This document shows, piece after piece, positions 6,061 to 13,526 of a stretch of 13,526 bases of DNA (within the stretch, counting starts at the first letter, position 1; every line of letters begins with the position of its first letter). Source of the DNA: a bacterium (lineage in GTDB: Bacteria; Orphanbacterota; Orphanbacteria; Orphanbacterales; Orphanbacteraceae); the NCBI GenBank assembly GCA_025782575.1, contig JALGYY010000024.1, positions 1 through 13,526 of the forward strand, in the 5' to 3' direction. The notes under the pieces are model-generated. The model made no database searches. It saw nothing but the letters and a program-made list of their open reading frames with translations, and had not been told where the DNA came from. Position numbers and translations under genes: made by a program.

Positions 6061-6079
6061 TCGGGCGTGGTCCGCCCGA
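6061..6079. other. Perfect GC-rich stem-loop between ybaK-type and rhodanese genes
   Basis: TCGGGCG-TGGTC-CGCCCGA has a 7-bp stem and a 5-base loop. It lies 46 bases after the deacylase stop and 62 before the rhodanese ATG. On the plus strand no T run follows. On the minus strand a T5 run follows four bases after the stem, but there is no minus-strand gene to terminate. It may be an RNA processing or pausing site. Confidence 0.4.
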
Positions 6080-6141
6080 CCACTTCGCGTTATCATGTTA
6101 TGGACAACACTCCACTGACACCCCTCGCCTGGAGGCCCGGT

Positions 6142-6756
6142 ATGAACAGGAACGATTCTGAACTCCCCCTTAGTCGCTCTTCTGCATGGCCCGTGTGGCC
6201 TGCTGCGTTGCTCGTCTGCATTCTTGCAGCAGCCGCCGGGCCGGCAGCCGCCGAAGATGAGGTGCCGAGCGCCAAGCGTACCGATGCCGGGCTCTACATG
6301 ACCTCATTGGAAGCGTACGAAAAATGGCTGGCCGACCCGGAAGGCGTCAAAGTAATCGATGTGCGCACGCCCGAGGAATATATGTTCGTCGGCCACGCCC
6401 CCATGGCGATCAATATTCCGCTCCTCCTCGTAGACTACGCCTGGAAGGCCGATCTGAAGAGACTCGCCATGCACGAAAACCAATCGTTTCTTTCCGATGT
6501 GGAAAAGCGGTTTGCGAAAAATGATCTGTTGGTTGTCATGTGCCGGTCGGGCAACGGGAGCGCCCCCGCGGTCAACAAGCTCACCGCCGCCGGCTTCACG
6601 AACGTCTACAATATTCTCGATGGATTCGAGGGTGACAAAGTCGATGATCCCGGTAGCTATTTTCACAAAAAGAGGGTCCGAAACGGGTGGAAGAACTCAG
6701 GGGCACCATGGGGTTATGATTTGAATGCTGACCTGATGATCCTCCCTCAGGAATGA
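6142..6756 (+). CDS. Exported rhodanese-like sulfurtransferase domain protein
   Basis: The 204-residue precursor has a Sec-type signal peptide: a long polar N-region, the hydrophobic core WPAALLVCILAAAAGPAAA, and a likely cut at AAA-ED. It is therefore periplasmic. The single rhodanese domain shows the VIDVRTPEEY motif (D73, R75), GHAPMAINIP, and the active-site loop MCRSGNGS with the putative persulfide-carrying C134. The common form of the loop is CRSGNRS, so one Arg is replaced by Gly. The C-terminus adds NGWKNSGAPWGYDLN, an extension I recall from other exported single-domain rhodaneses. ATG 6142 is chosen over an upstream in-frame start because GGAGG lies six bases before it and the signal peptide then has normal length. 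The sulfur acceptor is unknown. It sits 54 bases before the acyl-CoA synthetase. Confidence 0.9.
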   Translation: MNRNDSELPLSRSSAWPVWPAALLVCILAAAAGPAAAEDEVPSAKRTDAGLYMTSLEAYEKWLADPEGVKVIDVRTPEEYMFVGHAPMAINIPLLLVDYAWKADLKRLAMHENQSFLSDVEKRFAKNDLLVVMCRSGNGSAPAVNKLTAAGFTNVYNILDGFEGDKVDDPGSYFHKKRVRNGWKNSGAPWGYDLNADLMILPQE

Positions 6757-6810: not shown

Positions 6811-8991
6811 ATGACAACCAAGTCAACCATGGAAAAGGAAGACGACCGAGCACGCCACCGGGAGAGCAGGGGAGGTGCGGAATCGCTCCGGCCACTTCTC
6901 CGGCCCCGATCGATCGCTGTCATAGGAGCCTCGAACCGGGAGAATTCGCTCGGCGCGGCCATCCTGCGCAACCTGTTCGAACTGGGGTTTCACGGACCGA
7001 TCTACCCCGTACACCCGAAGGCCTCCTTCGTTCATTCGACAAAAGCGTATCCTTCACTCGAGGCGATTCCCGACGAAATCGATCTCGCCGTAATTGTAGT
7101 GCCCCGGCAATTTGTTGAAGGTGTCATGCAAGAATGCGCCTCCAAGAAAGTAAAAGGGGTGGTCGTCATCACGGCCGGCTACAAGGAGACGGGAACGGAA
7201 GGGGCCAAAGCGGAGCAACGGATCCTGGAGATCGCCCGGGGGGCGGGGATTCGCCTGATCGGACCGAATTGCATGGGAATTATCTCCACTGATCCTGAGA
7301 CGCGTATGGACGCCACGTTTTCACCCACCCCGCCGCCGGAGGGAACCGTGGCGATCGGTACTCAGAGCGGCGCACTTGGTGTGGTCATGCTCGAGTACGC
7401 CCGCGAGCTTAATCTCGGCGTAAGTGATTTCGTTTCCATGGGGAATAAGGCCGACGTCTCGAGCAACGATCTTCTGCAGTGGTGGGAAAATGATCCGCGA
7501 ACAAACGTGATCCTTCTCTACCTGGAGTCATTCGGAAACCCCAGAAAATTCGCAGCCCTGGCACGTCGGATCAATCATAAGAAGCCGATCATCGCGGTCA
7601 AGAGCGGCCGGAGTCGGAAGGGATTGCAGGCGGCGAGCAGCCACACCGGAAGCCTTGCCGGTGCGGACAAGGCAGTGGAAGCACTCCTTGTGCAGACCGG
7701 CGTCATTCGGGTCGACACGGTGGACGAACTGTTCGACACCGCCGCTTTCCTCGCCCACCAGCCCGTGCCGAAGGGACGGCGAGTCGGAATCGTTACGAAC
7801 GCCGGCGGGCCGGCGATCCTGGCCACAGATGCCTGCGAGGCGTGGGGACTCCAGATGCCCGACCTTGATGATTCTCTCAAAGCGCGCCTTGCCGAGTTCC
7901 TGCCGAAAGAGGCGAGCTTCAAGAATCCCGTGGACATGATTGCGTCTGCCGGGGCCGAGGAATTCGAAAAGGCGACTCGAGTCATGCTCGAGTCCGATCA
8001 GATCGACGCGCTGCTCGTTCTGGTTGTTCGACCGATCATCATGAACGCGAGCGAAATCGGAAGGGCTGTCGTGCGCGGCGCCGCCGGTTCGAACAAGCCC
8101 GTTCTCTCCTGCTTCATGGGCCGCCAGGGGATCCCGGAAGCACTCTCGTCCCTCAAGGAAGCACAAATCCCTTCCTATGCCTTCCCCGAGTCGGCCATAC
8201 GGGTCCTTTCACGAGTGGCTCGGTACGGTGAGTGGAAGGAAAGGCCCCACGGTTCGATCCCGGAGCTCCCCGACTTCGACCGGGACAAGATCAGCGCGGT
8301 GCTCGAGCATGCCCGGGCGCGGCTCGGTACGGAGGGGGGCTGGCTTTCCCCAGGCGAAGTAGATGAGCTGCTCACCCACTGCGGTATTGCCACGCCAGTT
8401 TCCCGCTTCGCGCGTGACGGGGTGGCGGCCAGGGAGATCGCAAGAACAATCGGCTTCCCGGTAGTTATGAAGGTGATCGCCGAGGGAGTAGAACATAAGA
8501 CTGATGTCGGCGGTGTGCACGTCGACATTCGAAATGAAGACGAAGTAGAGCAGGCATTCAAAACAATTCGGCAGTCGCTGATCGAGCACGACATCCCGCC
8601 GGACGTCATGAGCGGCGTCATGATTCAGCCGCTGATCAAGAATGGGACGGAGGCGATTGTAGGAGCATCCTGCGACCCGTCCTACGGACATCTGATCATG
8701 TTCGGGCTGGGTGGCGTGCATGTGGAATTGCTTCGCGATGTTGCGTTCCGTCTGGCGCCGATGACGGATATGGACGCGAAGGAGCTGGTTCGCGGCATTC
8801 GCGGCTATCCCCTTCTCGACGGCTTCCGCGGCGCCGATCTTGCGGACGTTCCCAAGCTCGAGGAGATCATCCTGCGTGTTTCCACATTGGTGAGCACGTT
8901 CCCGGAAATACAGGAAATGGACTTGAACCCGGTCAAGGTTCTCGCCCGTGGAAAGGGATGTGTAACCGTGGACGCTCGGGTCAGGGTTTAG
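6811..8991 (+). CDS. ADP-forming acyl-CoA (acetyl-CoA) synthetase, fused alpha-beta
   Basis: The 726-residue cytosolic enzyme interconverts acyl-CoA, ADP and phosphate with the free acid, ATP and CoA, usually conserving energy from acetyl- or other acyl-CoA. Domains in order: a CoA-binding Rossmann domain (about 27-155, SIAVIGASNRENSLG, IRLIGPNCMGI), succinyl-CoA-ligase-like domains (about 175-460) with the phosphohistidine H278 in AASSHTGSLAG, and an ATP-grasp domain (about 500-726, GFPVVMKVIAEGVEHKTDVG, IMFGLGGVHVELL, EMDLNPVKV). No acetyltransferase domain is fused to it, so it is not a Pat/YfiQ-type protein acetylase. Length is full for the fused family. AGAGG precedes ATG 6811. ATG 6829 is an alternative. 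Acyl specificity cannot be read from the sequence. It likely forms an operon with the rhodanese upstream and the DinB-like gene downstream. Confidence 0.93.
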   Translation: MTTKSTMEKEDDRARHRESRGGAESLRPLLRPRSIAVIGASNRENSLGAAILRNLFELGFHGPIYPVHPKASFVHSTKAYPSLEAIPDEIDLAVIVVPRQFVEGVMQECASKKVKGVVVITAGYKETGTEGAKAEQRILEIARGAGIRLIGPNCMGIISTDPETRMDATFSPTPPPEGTVAIGTQSGALGVVMLEYARELNLGVSDFVSMGNKADVSSNDLLQWWENDPRTNVILLYLESFGNPRKFAALARRINHKKPIIAVKSGRSRKGLQAASSHTGSLAGADKAVEALLVQTGVIRVDTVDELFDTAAFLAHQPVPKGRRVGIVTNAGGPAILATDACEAWGLQMPDLDDSLKARLAEFLPKEASFKNPVDMIASAGAEEFEKATRVMLESDQIDALLVLVVRPIIMNASEIGRAVVRGAAGSNKPVLSCFMGRQGIPEALSSLKEAQIPSYAFPESAIRVLSRVARYGEWKERPHGSIPELPDFDRDKISAVLEHARARLGTEGGWLSPGEVDELLTHCGIATPVSRFARDGVAAREIARTIGFPVVMKVIAEGVEHKTDVGGVHVDIRNEDEVEQAFKTIRQSLIEHDIPPDVMSGVMIQPLIKNGTEAIVGASCDPSYGHLIMFGLGGVHVELLRDVAFRLAPMTDMDAKELVRGIRGYPLLDGFRGADLADVPKLEEIILRVSTLVSTFPEIQEMDLNPVKVLARGKGCVTVDARVRV

Positions 8992-9568: not shown

Positions 9569-10804
9569 ATGCTTATGAATCCACGGTCATGGTGTCATAT
9601 TGTGCGACCCGTCGCTGTTCTGGTGTTGCTTCTCTTTTCGTTCATCGGATGTGGCCGGTCTTCATCTGATCGAACGGAGGTTGGTGAGAGTTCCTCCAGC
9701 AAGCGCCGTTTTCCCGGTTTTGTAGACACTCTCCACTACGGCCCTGCTCTTGAACTTCCGCGGCTCGATGTCATACGGGATCCGGACTCCTATCGAGAAA
9801 TGGCTCTCGCGTATGCCGAAGCACTCGAGGGACCGGCCGGCGATGGCGACCCTCATGTCACGCTGCTGACCGATCTGCTCGAAGGACAATTCGGGCGGGG
9901 TCGGCTCCTCTTTGTCGGCATGATGCATAGTGGGAGCGTCGATCTGGAGTTCACCGATCTCAATCAAGGGGATCGGTTGACTGATTACTGGTACGCCGCA
10001 ATCCGATTCCTCGCCCGAGCGCGGCCGGATTACGTTTTGATCGACAGCGATCGGGAACGGTTGTCTCTTCCGGGCGACGAGTGCGAGACTCACCCCGAAT
10101 TCTGCGATGAATTCAATGCGGCTTTCCCATCGATTGCCGACCTCCCACCCGAGCGAACGGCAGCCCAAAGCGCAATTCTTGCCAGGTACGGCATCGGGCT
10201 GACATACCAGGCGCTCAATCCGAATGCCACGATCCAGTGGATCGCCGGAGCTGCCGGGACGCCGGACCCATCCGGCATGGAAGACGGGGAGGCGATTCAG
10301 CAGATGAATGAGAACTGGGAAGATTCCGATCGAGCGGCGATGGAGCGCCTGGTCGATCTCTTCCGTCAGGCGGAGTGGCGCACAGTGGCCTATCTCGCCG
10401 GTGCCGGCGCGAATCCGCACAGACTGATCGACGAATACTTCCCCGATCCCGACCACCGGCCCACTATCTACCAGTCCGTCTGGCCTTCACTCCTTGTGGA
10501 AAACCGGGTCGTTCCGACCCTGGCGATTCTCTCCCTCGGTGATCGCGATGAAGACAGGATCGATGAAGCTCGAAGCCGGGCTCTTGTTACTTTTCTGGAG
10601 CACGCCGATCGGATTGATCCCTTTGTGTTCCCGTTCATGACCAAAGAGGCTCAGATCAAGGCACTCGAATCCGGCGCCTTAGAAGTATCGCGTTACGAGA
10701 AGGAGAAGATCTGGAACACATTAGTCCGGGGATCGCGCGATGAGGAGGTAAGCTACGCGCTGATCAATACTCTTGGGGCCGAGCTGGGGATGGCCGGTAG
10801 GTAG
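9569..10804 (+). CDS. Lipoprotein of unknown function
   Basis: The 411-residue precursor has a lipoprotein signal: basic N-region, core VAVLVLLLFSFIGC, and lipobox cysteine C28, followed by a Ser-rich tether (GRSSSD, GESSSSKRR). The mature part of about 380 residues is acidic and soluble-looking. One stretch, GRLLFVGMMHSGSVD followed by ARPDYVLIDSDRERLSL, loosely recalls the start of TraB/TIKI or ChaN-like folds (strand, G-x-x-H, then P-x-x-V-L). The remaining family motifs are not recognisable, so I do not assign it. C-terminal regions are helix-rich (ALVTFLEHADRID, KEAQIKALESG). No good Shine-Dalgarno site precedes ATG 9569 or the in-frame ATG 9575. It ends 29 bases before the convergent outer-membrane protein gene. 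Membrane anchoring is fairly sure, and which membrane is not. Confidence 0.8.
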   Translation: MLMNPRSWCHIVRPVAVLVLLLFSFIGCGRSSSDRTEVGESSSSKRRFPGFVDTLHYGPALELPRLDVIRDPDSYREMALAYAEALEGPAGDGDPHVTLLTDLLEGQFGRGRLLFVGMMHSGSVDLEFTDLNQGDRLTDYWYAAIRFLARARPDYVLIDSDRERLSLPGDECETHPEFCDEFNAAFPSIADLPPERTAAQSAILARYGIGLTYQALNPNATIQWIAGAAGTPDPSGMEDGEAIQQMNENWEDSDRAAMERLVDLFRQAEWRTVAYLAGAGANPHRLIDEYFPDPDHRPTIYQSVWPSLLVENRVVPTLAILSLGDRDEDRIDEARSRALVTFLEHADRIDPFVFPFMTKEAQIKALESGALEVSRYEKEKIWNTLVRGSRDEEVSYALINTLGAELGMAGR

Positions 10805-10833: not shown

Positions 10834-12462
10834 CTAGAATCGGTAGCTTGCGGATGAATAGAGCGACCGGCTCGCCTCATCCTGTCCTTCGCTGGTCTCT
10901 CCCGAAAGATTAACGTACCAGTAAGAAGCCACACGGAAATCGAAATCGATCGCGGTCCATGCGAGGCGGTCATTGTCAGAGGAATCCCCGATCCTTTCTT
11001 CCCGGCGTATTCCGTAAGTCACATCAGTCGAGATCCGGTCACCCAGGTTCGCCCCCAGTGTCCAGGAGTGGAGCCAGCCGACCGATCGCGTGTTCCGATA
11101 CCGCGTGTTCCTCGTTCGAATCCTGAGCCCGGTGAAACGGGGGAACCCCCAGCTGGTCGACAGCGTCTGGGAATGCGTGCCAGGGGAGCTTCCGCCATCC
11201 CGCGCACGCACACGAAATGCAATCCGATTCCTCTTCCACAGCTTCTGCGTCACGCCGCCCCAGATACCTTGTCTGTAGGTATCATCAAATTCGGTCTCCG
11301 GTGTTTCGAGACTCCGGTAAAGACGGATCGAACGGCGATTGTCATAGCCGCCGTCAATTGAAAACTGAGGCGTAATCGCCACTCGAGCGAGAAGAAAAGT
11401 ATTGGTAGGCGTGAGCGCATGGTCTTCCATTTCGCGCCGCCATCCCCGGTTCCAGTCCGCCTGTTGGGAGAGCGTGGCCATCCACCGCCCCCTGTTGAGA
11501 CGGGTTTGGAGAAAGAGGTACTCCCTGTCTATGTCTCCGTGAAGGTAGGTGCCGATCGCGCCGACCGTCATTGAGTATCGATTGCCCGGCGGCGTCTTTC
11601 CTTTGTATTCAGCGAAAAGGCCGTACTCAAAGATTTCCCCGGAAAGCCCGTAGTGCTTACTATCGGGCTGCGTTCCGGCCAGGATCCCATAGCCGATCCC
11701 CTTGCCTGCCCTCCTCGCGAGGAGGCCGTCGAAAACGCTGACCGCCGCAAGAGAGGGGGAGACCTGGCGACCGACGGTGATTCGATACTGAGCTCTTCCG
11801 GGATTCCAACTGGTCGACAGCCGGTAAATTCGCGTCCTTCCCTCGGAGGGCGTTTCGCCATTGGTGCGCACACGATACGTTCGCCTTGACCGTAGATCGA
11901 TTTCCACCCCCCAGTCGCTGGTCCCGATCCTCTCACTCGACAGTTTCAGGTTGAGGGCCGGCTGCGTATAGTCCTCACCATCTCCCGTGCGATCATCGAC
12001 GGCGATAAACCGAATGCTTGCCCTTCCACGGATCCCATGTTGCGATAACCATCGCCGGTTTTTACCCCTGCGAGGCGATGACTTCTTCCGGCTCTCGGAT
12101 CGGTCGTCCAGAACGGTGGAGCCTGAACCTGACTGAATGGCATCCCGGGGGGGAGTGGTCAGGAGAGAAAGGCGGACCGTCAGCCCAGCCCGCAGGGGGA
12201 GTGACGAATTCTCGATGGCGCAGACTGAATGCCCGGATGCCAGGTCAGTTACCTGAAGGCGGGCGACGATTTTTTCATCTTGAATCACGTCGAAACGCGC
12301 CCCGATGAATGCCCCCTTATCCCGCCCCACGTCCACGTACGCACTGGTTCGAGTGGAATAGGTAATGGCGCCCACCAGCCGATCGGGGACGGCCGATTCG
12401 TCCGCCAGGGCGAAAATCGCCTGCAGAAGCAGAACCGAAATGATAGTGAGCTGCCGTCTCAT
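10834..12462 (-). CDS. Outer-membrane beta-barrel protein with N-terminal SH3-like domain, coupled to a multiheme cytochrome
   Basis: The 542-residue precursor has a signal peptide (MRRQLTIISVLLLQAIFALA, cut likely after A20). A small domain at about 27-98 follows (VGAITYSTRTSAYVDVGRDK, then G-x-x-x-G-x-x-F-x-V), resembling the SH3-like C-terminal domain of FlgT-type proteins. Next is a basic Ser/Arg linker (about 100-142). From about 143 to the end there are alternating, aromatic-rich amphipathic strands, for example RYSMTVGAIGTYL, RWMATLSQQADW and YSSASYRF. A C-terminal Phe preceded by alternating hydrophobics is the usual Bam recognition end. The start ATG 12462 shares its A with the cytochrome stop (TGATG), with GGAG upstream, so translation is coupled. 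An upstream in-frame start inside the cytochrome gene (to 12495) is rejected. I infer a porin-like partner for outer-membrane electron transfer, analogous in logic to MtrB or OmbB. No sequence relation to those is claimed. Confidence 0.82.
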   Translation of the reverse strand: MRRQLTIISVLLLQAIFALADESAVPDRLVGAITYSTRTSAYVDVGRDKGAFIGARFDVIQDEKIVARLQVTDLASGHSVCAIENSSLPLRAGLTVRLSLLTTPPRDAIQSGSGSTVLDDRSESRKKSSPRRGKNRRWLSQHGIRGRASIRFIAVDDRTGDGEDYTQPALNLKLSSERIGTSDWGVEIDLRSRRTYRVRTNGETPSEGRTRIYRLSTSWNPGRAQYRITVGRQVSPSLAAVSVFDGLLARRAGKGIGYGILAGTQPDSKHYGLSGEIFEYGLFAEYKGKTPPGNRYSMTVGAIGTYLHGDIDREYLFLQTRLNRGRWMATLSQQADWNRGWRREMEDHALTPTNTFLLARVAITPQFSIDGGYDNRRSIRLYRSLETPETEFDDTYRQGIWGGVTQKLWKRNRIAFRVRARDGGSSPGTHSQTLSTSWGFPRFTGLRIRTRNTRYRNTRSVGWLHSWTLGANLGDRISTDVTYGIRREERIGDSSDNDRLAWTAIDFDFRVASYWYVNLSGETSEGQDEASRSLYSSASYRF

Positions 12463-13526
12463 CAATCGTCTCCGGTGGGATGACAGAAGTAACATTCGGC
12501 GCTTACGTAGGAGTACCCCGACACTTCCTTGTGGTCATTATCGACCTTGGTCTTGTCGTCATGCTTGTGACAATCAATGCAGGAAAAGACCGAAAAGTCG
12601 GAGGGAACAACATGGCAGGAAGCGCAATCGTTGTCCCACTTGTCTTTGTGCTTGCCCGAATAGATCGGGAAATAGGCTCCATCATGATCGAACGTCGCCC
12701 CCTCCCACTGATTCGTGTTGTGGCAATCGAGACAGTCGATCGGGAAACCGGCAGAAGCATGATTCGGGTTCATCGTGTTGTCGTAGTCCGGTTGATGACA
12801 GGAGTAGCAGTCGCTTGATGTCCCCTGATATACGCCGTCTCCGTGGCAGGTGATACATGTGAGCCCCGAGTGCCCGCCGTTCAACGGGAAGAAATTGTGA
12901 TCGAAGGGCGCGCCCGGCCACCCGCCGATGTCATGACACTGGGCGCAGTCGGTCGGAAAGCCGGCGTTTACATGATCGGGATCGGTAGTCGACTGGAAGT
13001 CGGTCAGATGGCAGTCTTCGCAGAGCGTCGGCGTTCCCTGGAAGACGCCGTCTCCATGGCACTGGCTACACGCCAATCCGCCATGTCCCTGGGTCAGTGA
13101 AAAGATATTGTGATCGAAAGTGCCGTCACCCCAACTCCCGATGTCGTGACACTCGGCGCAGTCGGTCGGGAAGCCGGCGTCTACATGATCGGGGTCGGTA
13201 GTCGACTGGAAGTCGGTCAGGTGACAGTCTTCGCAGAGCGCCGGCGTTCCCTGGAAGACGCCGTCTCCGTGGCACTGGCTACACGCCAACCCGCCATGTC
13301 CCTGGGTCAGTGAAAAGATATTGTGATCGAAAGTGCCGTCACCCCACCCGCCGATGTCATGACACTCGGCGCAGTCGGTCGGAAAGCCGGCGTCTACATG
13401 ATCGGGGTCGGTAGTCGACTGGAAGTCGGTCAGGTGACAGTCTTCGCAGAGCGCCGGCGTTCCCTGGAAGACGCCGTCTCCATGGCACTGATTACACGAC
13501 AACCCGCCATGTCCCTGGGTCAGTGA
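12462..13526 (-). CDS. Multiheme c-type cytochrome with tandem triheme repeats, 5' end beyond the window
   Basis: The frame is open to the right edge, and the first visible codons already lie within a repeat, so the gene is 5'-truncated. The TTG at 13502 sits mid-repeat (GGLSCNQCH) and is not a start. The 354 visible residues hold 15 CXXCH heme sites: three in each of four repeat units and three in a distinct terminal module (CASCH, CIDCH, CYFCH). Units one to three are 71 residues and nearly identical. The fourth is diverged and 73 long. Each unit also has three spare histidines (in GHGG or GHSG, at D/N-x-H of the P-x-H segment, and in FDH), enough for bis-His ligation of all three hemes. 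The terminal module also has spare histidines and ends in CHPTGDD. Periplasmic or extracellular location is implied by c-type hemes, though the signal peptide is not visible. It is coupled by TGATG to the outer-membrane barrel gene. Confidence 0.93.
   Translation of the reverse strand, partial: SLTQGHGGLSCNQCHGDGVFQGTPALCEDCHLTDFQSTTDPDHVDAGFPTDCAECHDIGGWGDGTFDHNIFSLTQGHGGLACSQCHGDGVFQGTPALCEDCHLTDFQSTTDPDHVDAGFPTDCAECHDIGSWGDGTFDHNIFSLTQGHGGLACSQCHGDGVFQGTPTLCEDCHLTDFQSTTDPDHVNAGFPTDCAQCHDIGGWPGAPFDHNFFPLNGGHSGLTCITCHGDGVYQGTSSDCYSCHQPDYDNTMNPNHASAGFPIDCLDCHNTNQWEGATFDHDGAYFPIYSGKHKDKWDNDCASCHVVPSDFSVFSCIDCHKHDDKTKVDNDHKEVSGYSYVSAECYFCHPTGDD
12888..13526 (-). repeat. Three near-identical 213-bp tandem repeats encoding triheme modules
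   Basis: Units lie at 13314-13526, 13101-13313 and 12888-13100, each exactly 213 bp (71 codons). By eye the first two differ at about nine positions. The third is also close, with most differences at its C-terminal end (coding GGWPGAPFDHNFF). A fourth, much more diverged 219-bp unit follows at 12669-12887. The array continues past the right edge. The low divergence indicates recent duplication or ongoing homogenisation. Confidence 0.95.

Follow-up and report, generated by a model that had tools for sequence, protein, structure and literature searches.

The closest described counterparts of the locus analysed here are the four-part porin-cytochrome systems termed PCC3 (He et al. 2017, PMC5566968), which were reported from Alpha-, Beta- and Gammaproteobacteria and are known from Sideroxydans, Leptothrix and Gallionellaceae. 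They contain a cytochrome of about 21 hemes and a larger, repeat-built one of variable size, with a median of 34 hemes (PMC5566968). PCC3 is a recurrent candidate for extracellular electron transfer, a function that is unverified according to the literature, and in the papers that we searched it came from Proteobacteria only. The window, that is the whole stretch of 13,526 nucleotides that was analysed, carries the last part of a conserved set of five genes, whose products most likely conduct electrons from inside the cell across the outer membrane.

The last gene of this module (10834..12462, minus strand) encodes a predicted outer-membrane barrel protein of 542 aa. According to the open reading frame, the protein starts with MRRQLTIISVLLLQAIFALA and ends in ...SASYRF. 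The N-terminal sequence corresponds to a signal peptide (about residues 1-20; 12403..12462, minus strand), whose boundary was placed by eye. It is followed by a small beta-barrel domain of the FlgT C-terminal type (residues 27-104; 12151..12384, minus strand), predicted to be periplasmic, and by a predicted transmembrane beta barrel with a C-terminal aromatic residue (residues 143-542; 10837..12036, minus strand). Upstream lies the 3' part of a cytochrome made of triheme repeats (12462..13526, minus strand). This fragment of 354 aa contains 15 CXXCH motifs, matches class III / c7 cytochrome families and is open at its 5' end at the contig edge, the contig truly ending at 13526. The two genes meet in a TGATG stop/start overlap (12460..12464, minus strand), where the TGA of the cytochrome and the ATG of the barrel gene have one base in common. 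Direct reading of the open reading frames and of the junction confirmed what the sequence-only reading had described, namely a cytochrome with at least 15 CXXCH sites joined by a one-base overlap to a signal-peptide-bearing barrel protein ending in YRF.

Rightward extension had been suggested as a way to find the signal peptide of the cytochrome and any further cytochrome genes, and a second contig of the same genome (C7), located via a homologous 20-heme cytochrome, supplied both: the signal peptide and, upstream, a 20-heme cytochrome. At its left end, C7 encodes the N-terminus of a cytochrome of the same type as the window fragment, and the first 45 bases of this contig (C7:1-45) are identical to window positions 13482..13526 (no strand assigned) and in frame with the cytochrome. 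In the two sequences compared, no second site with fewer than 4 mismatches to this 45-bp overlap was found, so that the join is likely. Near-identical 213-bp repeats occupy the contig ends (window 12850-13526, C7:1-2700) and are the likely cause of the assembly break. The joined cytochrome, about 1200 residues long, carries a signal peptide and at least 49 CXXCH motifs, the latter number being a minimum because copies of the near-identical repeats may be collapsed at the join. The CXXCH spacing 30-16-25 is repeated throughout its body (71 aa, or 213 bp, per triheme unit), which bears out the earlier description of a cytochrome built from triheme repeats. Outside the CXXCH motifs there are 51 histidines for 49 hemes, and there is no spare cysteine.

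The module genes on C7 lie on the same strand, in the order membrane protein, flavoprotein, 20-heme cytochrome and repeat cytochrome, with the barrel gene of the window coming next. The Fe-S flavoprotein (locus L162, G000:C7, 4381-5844) has a hydrophobic stretch at its N-terminus and contains a zinc ribbon, a pair of ferredoxin motifs and a domain of the pyridine-nucleotide oxidoreductase type. In its second ferredoxin motif, CxGHGxCxxxCP, a histidine replaces the second cysteine in 58 of 60 flavoprotein homologues, which suggests a 3Cys/1His cluster. The neighbouring membrane protein (C7:5845-6939) is of a diheme b type, with the motifs WLDVH-X13-H, SGVVG and WHVAH-X13-H. It is rich in histidine and weakly related to cytochrome b561 and ferric reductase types. 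In an alignment of 15 such membrane proteins, neither the four heme-b histidines nor the glycines of SGXXG vary. Of the 50 loci that have both the barrel and the membrane protein, 47 also encode the flavoprotein. Two genomes encode flavoprotein and membrane protein as one chain (L212:7892-10159 and L210:7259-10300), a NOX-like layout. A search with the membrane protein gave matches in 39 of 386 genomes across the domain, with the same neighbours at many of the loci fetched. A match to the membrane protein on an Acetobacter aceti plasmid was set aside: it covers 31% of that protein, and the annotation shows no multiheme cytochrome in its vicinity.

We then counted hemes in the 50 loci where both cytochromes are complete. 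The first cytochrome, corresponding to the 20-heme protein of C7, has 20 hemes in 30 loci, 23 in 12 and 17 in 3. The second, repeat-built cytochrome ranges from 9 to 73 hemes, and its heme number equals 3n+1 in 39 of the 50 loci (p ~1e-10 with loci treated as independent, a value that is only indicative because these loci are themselves related). We read these counts as pointing to a first cytochrome of fixed length and a second one that would be extensible in triheme steps. By analogy with the PCC3 models, this difference would fit a first cytochrome that spans the periplasm and a second one that reaches outward.

The conservation of the barrel was analysed with a profile built from nine barrels. 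Relatives were found in 3 of the 7 genomes from the phylum of the window, in four other phyla (40/132, 22/80, 40/247 and 1/2 genomes, many of the matches in the third being weak and partial) and in a Gemmatimonadetes MAG. No match was obtained in phage records. Among the 84 barrel matches inspected, 7 lie at contig edges; the other 77 have more than 60 bp of upstream contig, and each of these 77 is preceded on the same strand by a multiheme cytochrome. Among them, two represent fragments of a single gene, and a few are partial and weak. The stop/start overlap recurs in four loci (L010, L013, L015 and L016) and gaps of two bases are seen in two others (L011 and L017). The proposed pairing is thus conserved in several phyla, the barrel gene does not usually sit apart from heme proteins, and chance adjacency was rejected on the basis of these usable loci. 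The whole module is also present on plasmid pEMTOL02 of Emticicia oligotrophica DSM 17448, a cultured member of the Bacteroidota (NC_018749.1 78197-89995, L213). The order there is ccsA, membrane protein, flavoprotein, 23-heme cytochrome, 40-heme cytochrome and barrel, so that a cytochrome c maturation gene (ccsA) lies beside the module. The 40-heme cytochrome has 41 other histidines.

How does this module compare with described systems? As in PCC3, a barrel gene, predicted from sequence statistics, adjoins multiheme cytochrome genes; a cytochrome of about 20 hemes is accompanied by a large, variable and repeat-rich one (20 and at least 49 hemes in the genome of the window); and the inner-membrane protein is of the type of about 300 aa that carries SGXXG and two WX3HX13H motifs. 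The gene order is that of Slit_0867-0870 in Sideroxydans ES-1, provided that the outer two genes there encode the porin and the inner-membrane protein. In contrast to the published four-part PCC3, the module adds an Fe-S flavoprotein of NAD(P)H type. Its first cytochrome has 17, 20 or 23 hemes, whereas those of Gallionellaceae have 21, 24 or 27. Its porin is about 520-560 aa long and carries a FlgT-type domain, whereas PCC3 porins have up to 42 predicted strands. The module also occurs in non-proteobacterial phyla. In the literature searched, beyond which further papers may exist, we found no earlier report of PCC3 in other phyla. The module is best called a PCC3-like variant, matched on gene order, heme-count logic and motifs of the inner-membrane protein, the porins being compared by description only. 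The suggestion that it might be an undescribed type is therefore only partly right: architecture, heme counts and the WX3HX13H/SGXXG protein match PCC3 (PMC5566968), whereas the published description of PCC3 includes neither the flavoprotein nor a FlgT-type domain and covers no phyla beyond the Proteobacteria. The 3n+1 heme ladder is likewise absent from this four-part account.

MtrCAB, MtoAB and PioAB also have a barrel gene adjoining a multiheme cytochrome, with electron transfer across the outer membrane as the working model. However, their cytochromes have 10 and 10 hemes, as opposed to 20 and at least 49 here, and the module has no decaheme partner. A comparison of the barrel with MtrB/PioB profiles had been proposed and came out negative: none of 36 barrel members matched PF11854 or a corresponding NCBIfam family, no solved MtrB was matched by sequence, and membership in the MtrB/PioB family was rejected. 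Geobacter OmbB-OmaB-OmcB and Ext clusters likewise group a porin with periplasmic and outer cytochromes, but OmaB and OmcB, with 8 and 12 hemes, are set apart by their heme numbers. One divergent barrel member gave a weak match to the GSU2204 family.

We propose, with a probability of roughly 0.78, that the window encodes the distal portion of an envelope-spanning electron conduit of the porin-cytochrome kind, similar to PCC3. NAD(P)H or a cytoplasmic ferredoxin would reduce the Fe-S flavoprotein, and the membrane protein, with its two b-hemes, would pass electrons across the inner membrane. The 20-heme cytochrome, of fixed length, would carry them over the periplasm, and the barrel, with its FlgT-type periplasmic domain, would offer the heme chain a passage through the outer membrane. 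The triheme-repeat cytochrome, variable in length, could then act as a wire outside the cell towards a mineral, a humic substance or a partner cell. In this scheme the genes and their order, the conserved pairing, the motifs for heme and b-heme binding, the FlgT-like fold and the barrel-like sequence are observed, and we infer the locations of the cytochromes, the insertion of a heme protein in the barrel, the direction of flow and the external partner. The conduit function put forward in the sequence-only reading is well supported at the level of gene content, by the adjacency of barrel and cytochrome at all 77 usable loci and by the presence upstream of the rest of a membrane-to-membrane chain. 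A bolder version, which we advance tentatively and hold to be doubtful, would see in the module a self-contained circuit, independent of quinones, that leads from NAD(P)H to the surface of the cell. In it, the Fe-S flavoprotein and the NOX-like diheme membrane protein would feed a fixed heme wire in the periplasm and, through a barrel with a FlgT-type domain, an extracellular wire evolving in length by triheme steps; the circuit would be present in many phyla and able to travel on a plasmid.

The same conduit may instead run in reverse and take up electrons from Fe(II), minerals or other cells, delivering them to the inner-membrane b-type protein. We consider this rather unlikely. PCC3 was found in genomes of iron oxidisers and modelled as a system for electron uptake (PMC5566968), but both PCC3 clusters of Sideroxydans ES-1 are down-regulated during growth on Fe(II), a point that also weighs against our main proposal. 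Multiheme conduits are able to run both ways, and the Emticicia module is plasmid-borne. The Emticicia strain comes from warm spring water and the genus is aerobic, so that an export role is not obvious in this organism. On the other hand, the near-universal flavoprotein fits outward flow more easily, because bringing electrons from the level of Fe(II) to NAD(P)H is uphill. Electrons may flow either way: the flavoprotein would favour outward flow, whereas PCC3 was first proposed for uptake. For the PCC3-like conduit as such, the spread to several other phyla, the Bacteroidota plasmid and the NAD(P)H-type flavoprotein provide a putative source of electrons, an organism amenable to experiments and an anatomy that can be tested, composed of a fixed 20/23-heme part and an extensible 3n+1-heme part. 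They also suggest that electron exchange at the cell surface may be commoner than the known families show.

The barrel itself was analysed in two parts. The barrel gene of the window has no Pfam or NCBIfam family match, and no solved structure was convincing by sequence; in the scan of 36 family members, one matched Porin_4. We collected 79 full-length homologues; the C-terminus is complete in 77, and 54 of these have F, W or Y as their last residue. For residues 143-542, hydrophobic alternation reaches 0.386, as compared to 0.267 +/- 0.023 (maximum 0.330) in 500 shuffles. The assignment of these residues to a barrel is thereby well supported by sequence statistics. A structure model computed from a two-sequence alignment is of low confidence (pLDDT 35), a point against the conduit; about 21 long strands appear in it. 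The N-terminal domain (residues 27-104) gave a confident AF2 model (pLDDT 88.5, pTM 0.77) that superimposes on residues 265-356 of FlgT (3w1e) with Z 11.0 and rmsd 2.1 over 76 aligned residues. The SH3-like domain first noticed here is thus a real small barrel, of the FlgT C-terminal type. N-terminal barrels of F1-ATPase match its fold at a similar Z; we preferred FlgT because sequence profiles agree with it, FlgT_C (Pfam) being found in 4 of 36 barrel members and TsaP by profile with an E of 6e-4. In the Gemmatimonadetes barrel protein (L010:9434-11548), about 150 additional residues at the N-terminus precede the FlgT-type domain.

This domain raises the possibility that the barrel serves mainly as an export or assembly platform, with the FlgT/TsaP-type domain organising a ring or an anchor in the periplasm while the repeat cytochrome passes through and becomes a surface filament, without any stable heme-in-barrel arrangement. 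FlgT, of the flagellar H ring, and TsaP, the type IV pilus secretin-associated protein, are both parts of outer-membrane machines, and the repeat cytochrome can be very long (49-73 hemes). However, the likeness to these proteins is limited to the small C-terminal beta-barrel domain, and since the fold is shared with F1-ATPase N-terminal barrels it reveals no function by itself. No secretion, flagellar or pilus genes were recognised in the clusters examined and, according to the literature, known conduits with similar gene pairs have heme inside the barrel. We judge a platform role unlikely. Still less probable is a periplasmic electron store, in which both cytochromes would be a capacitor and the barrel an unrelated solute channel: the ordinary Sec signal peptide of the repeat cytochrome, with no lipobox evident in the joined sequence, would suit it and counts against the conduit, but the strict adjacency across phyla of barrel and cytochrome genes that overlap or nearly touch does not, and up to 73 hemes exceed the need of a periplasm-spanning role.

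Several other genes were observed in the window. Convergent with the barrel gene lies a gene for an exported 411-aa protein (9569-10804) with a lipobox-like N-terminus (FIGCG) and without Pfam or NCBIfam match. Positions 6811-8991 encode an ADP-forming acyl-CoA synthetase as a single chain holding both subunits, and positions 6067-6756 an exported rhodanese-like protein. Finally, the hydrogenase maturation gene hypB overlaps a likely hypA, identified by eye, at 981-1999 on the minus strand.
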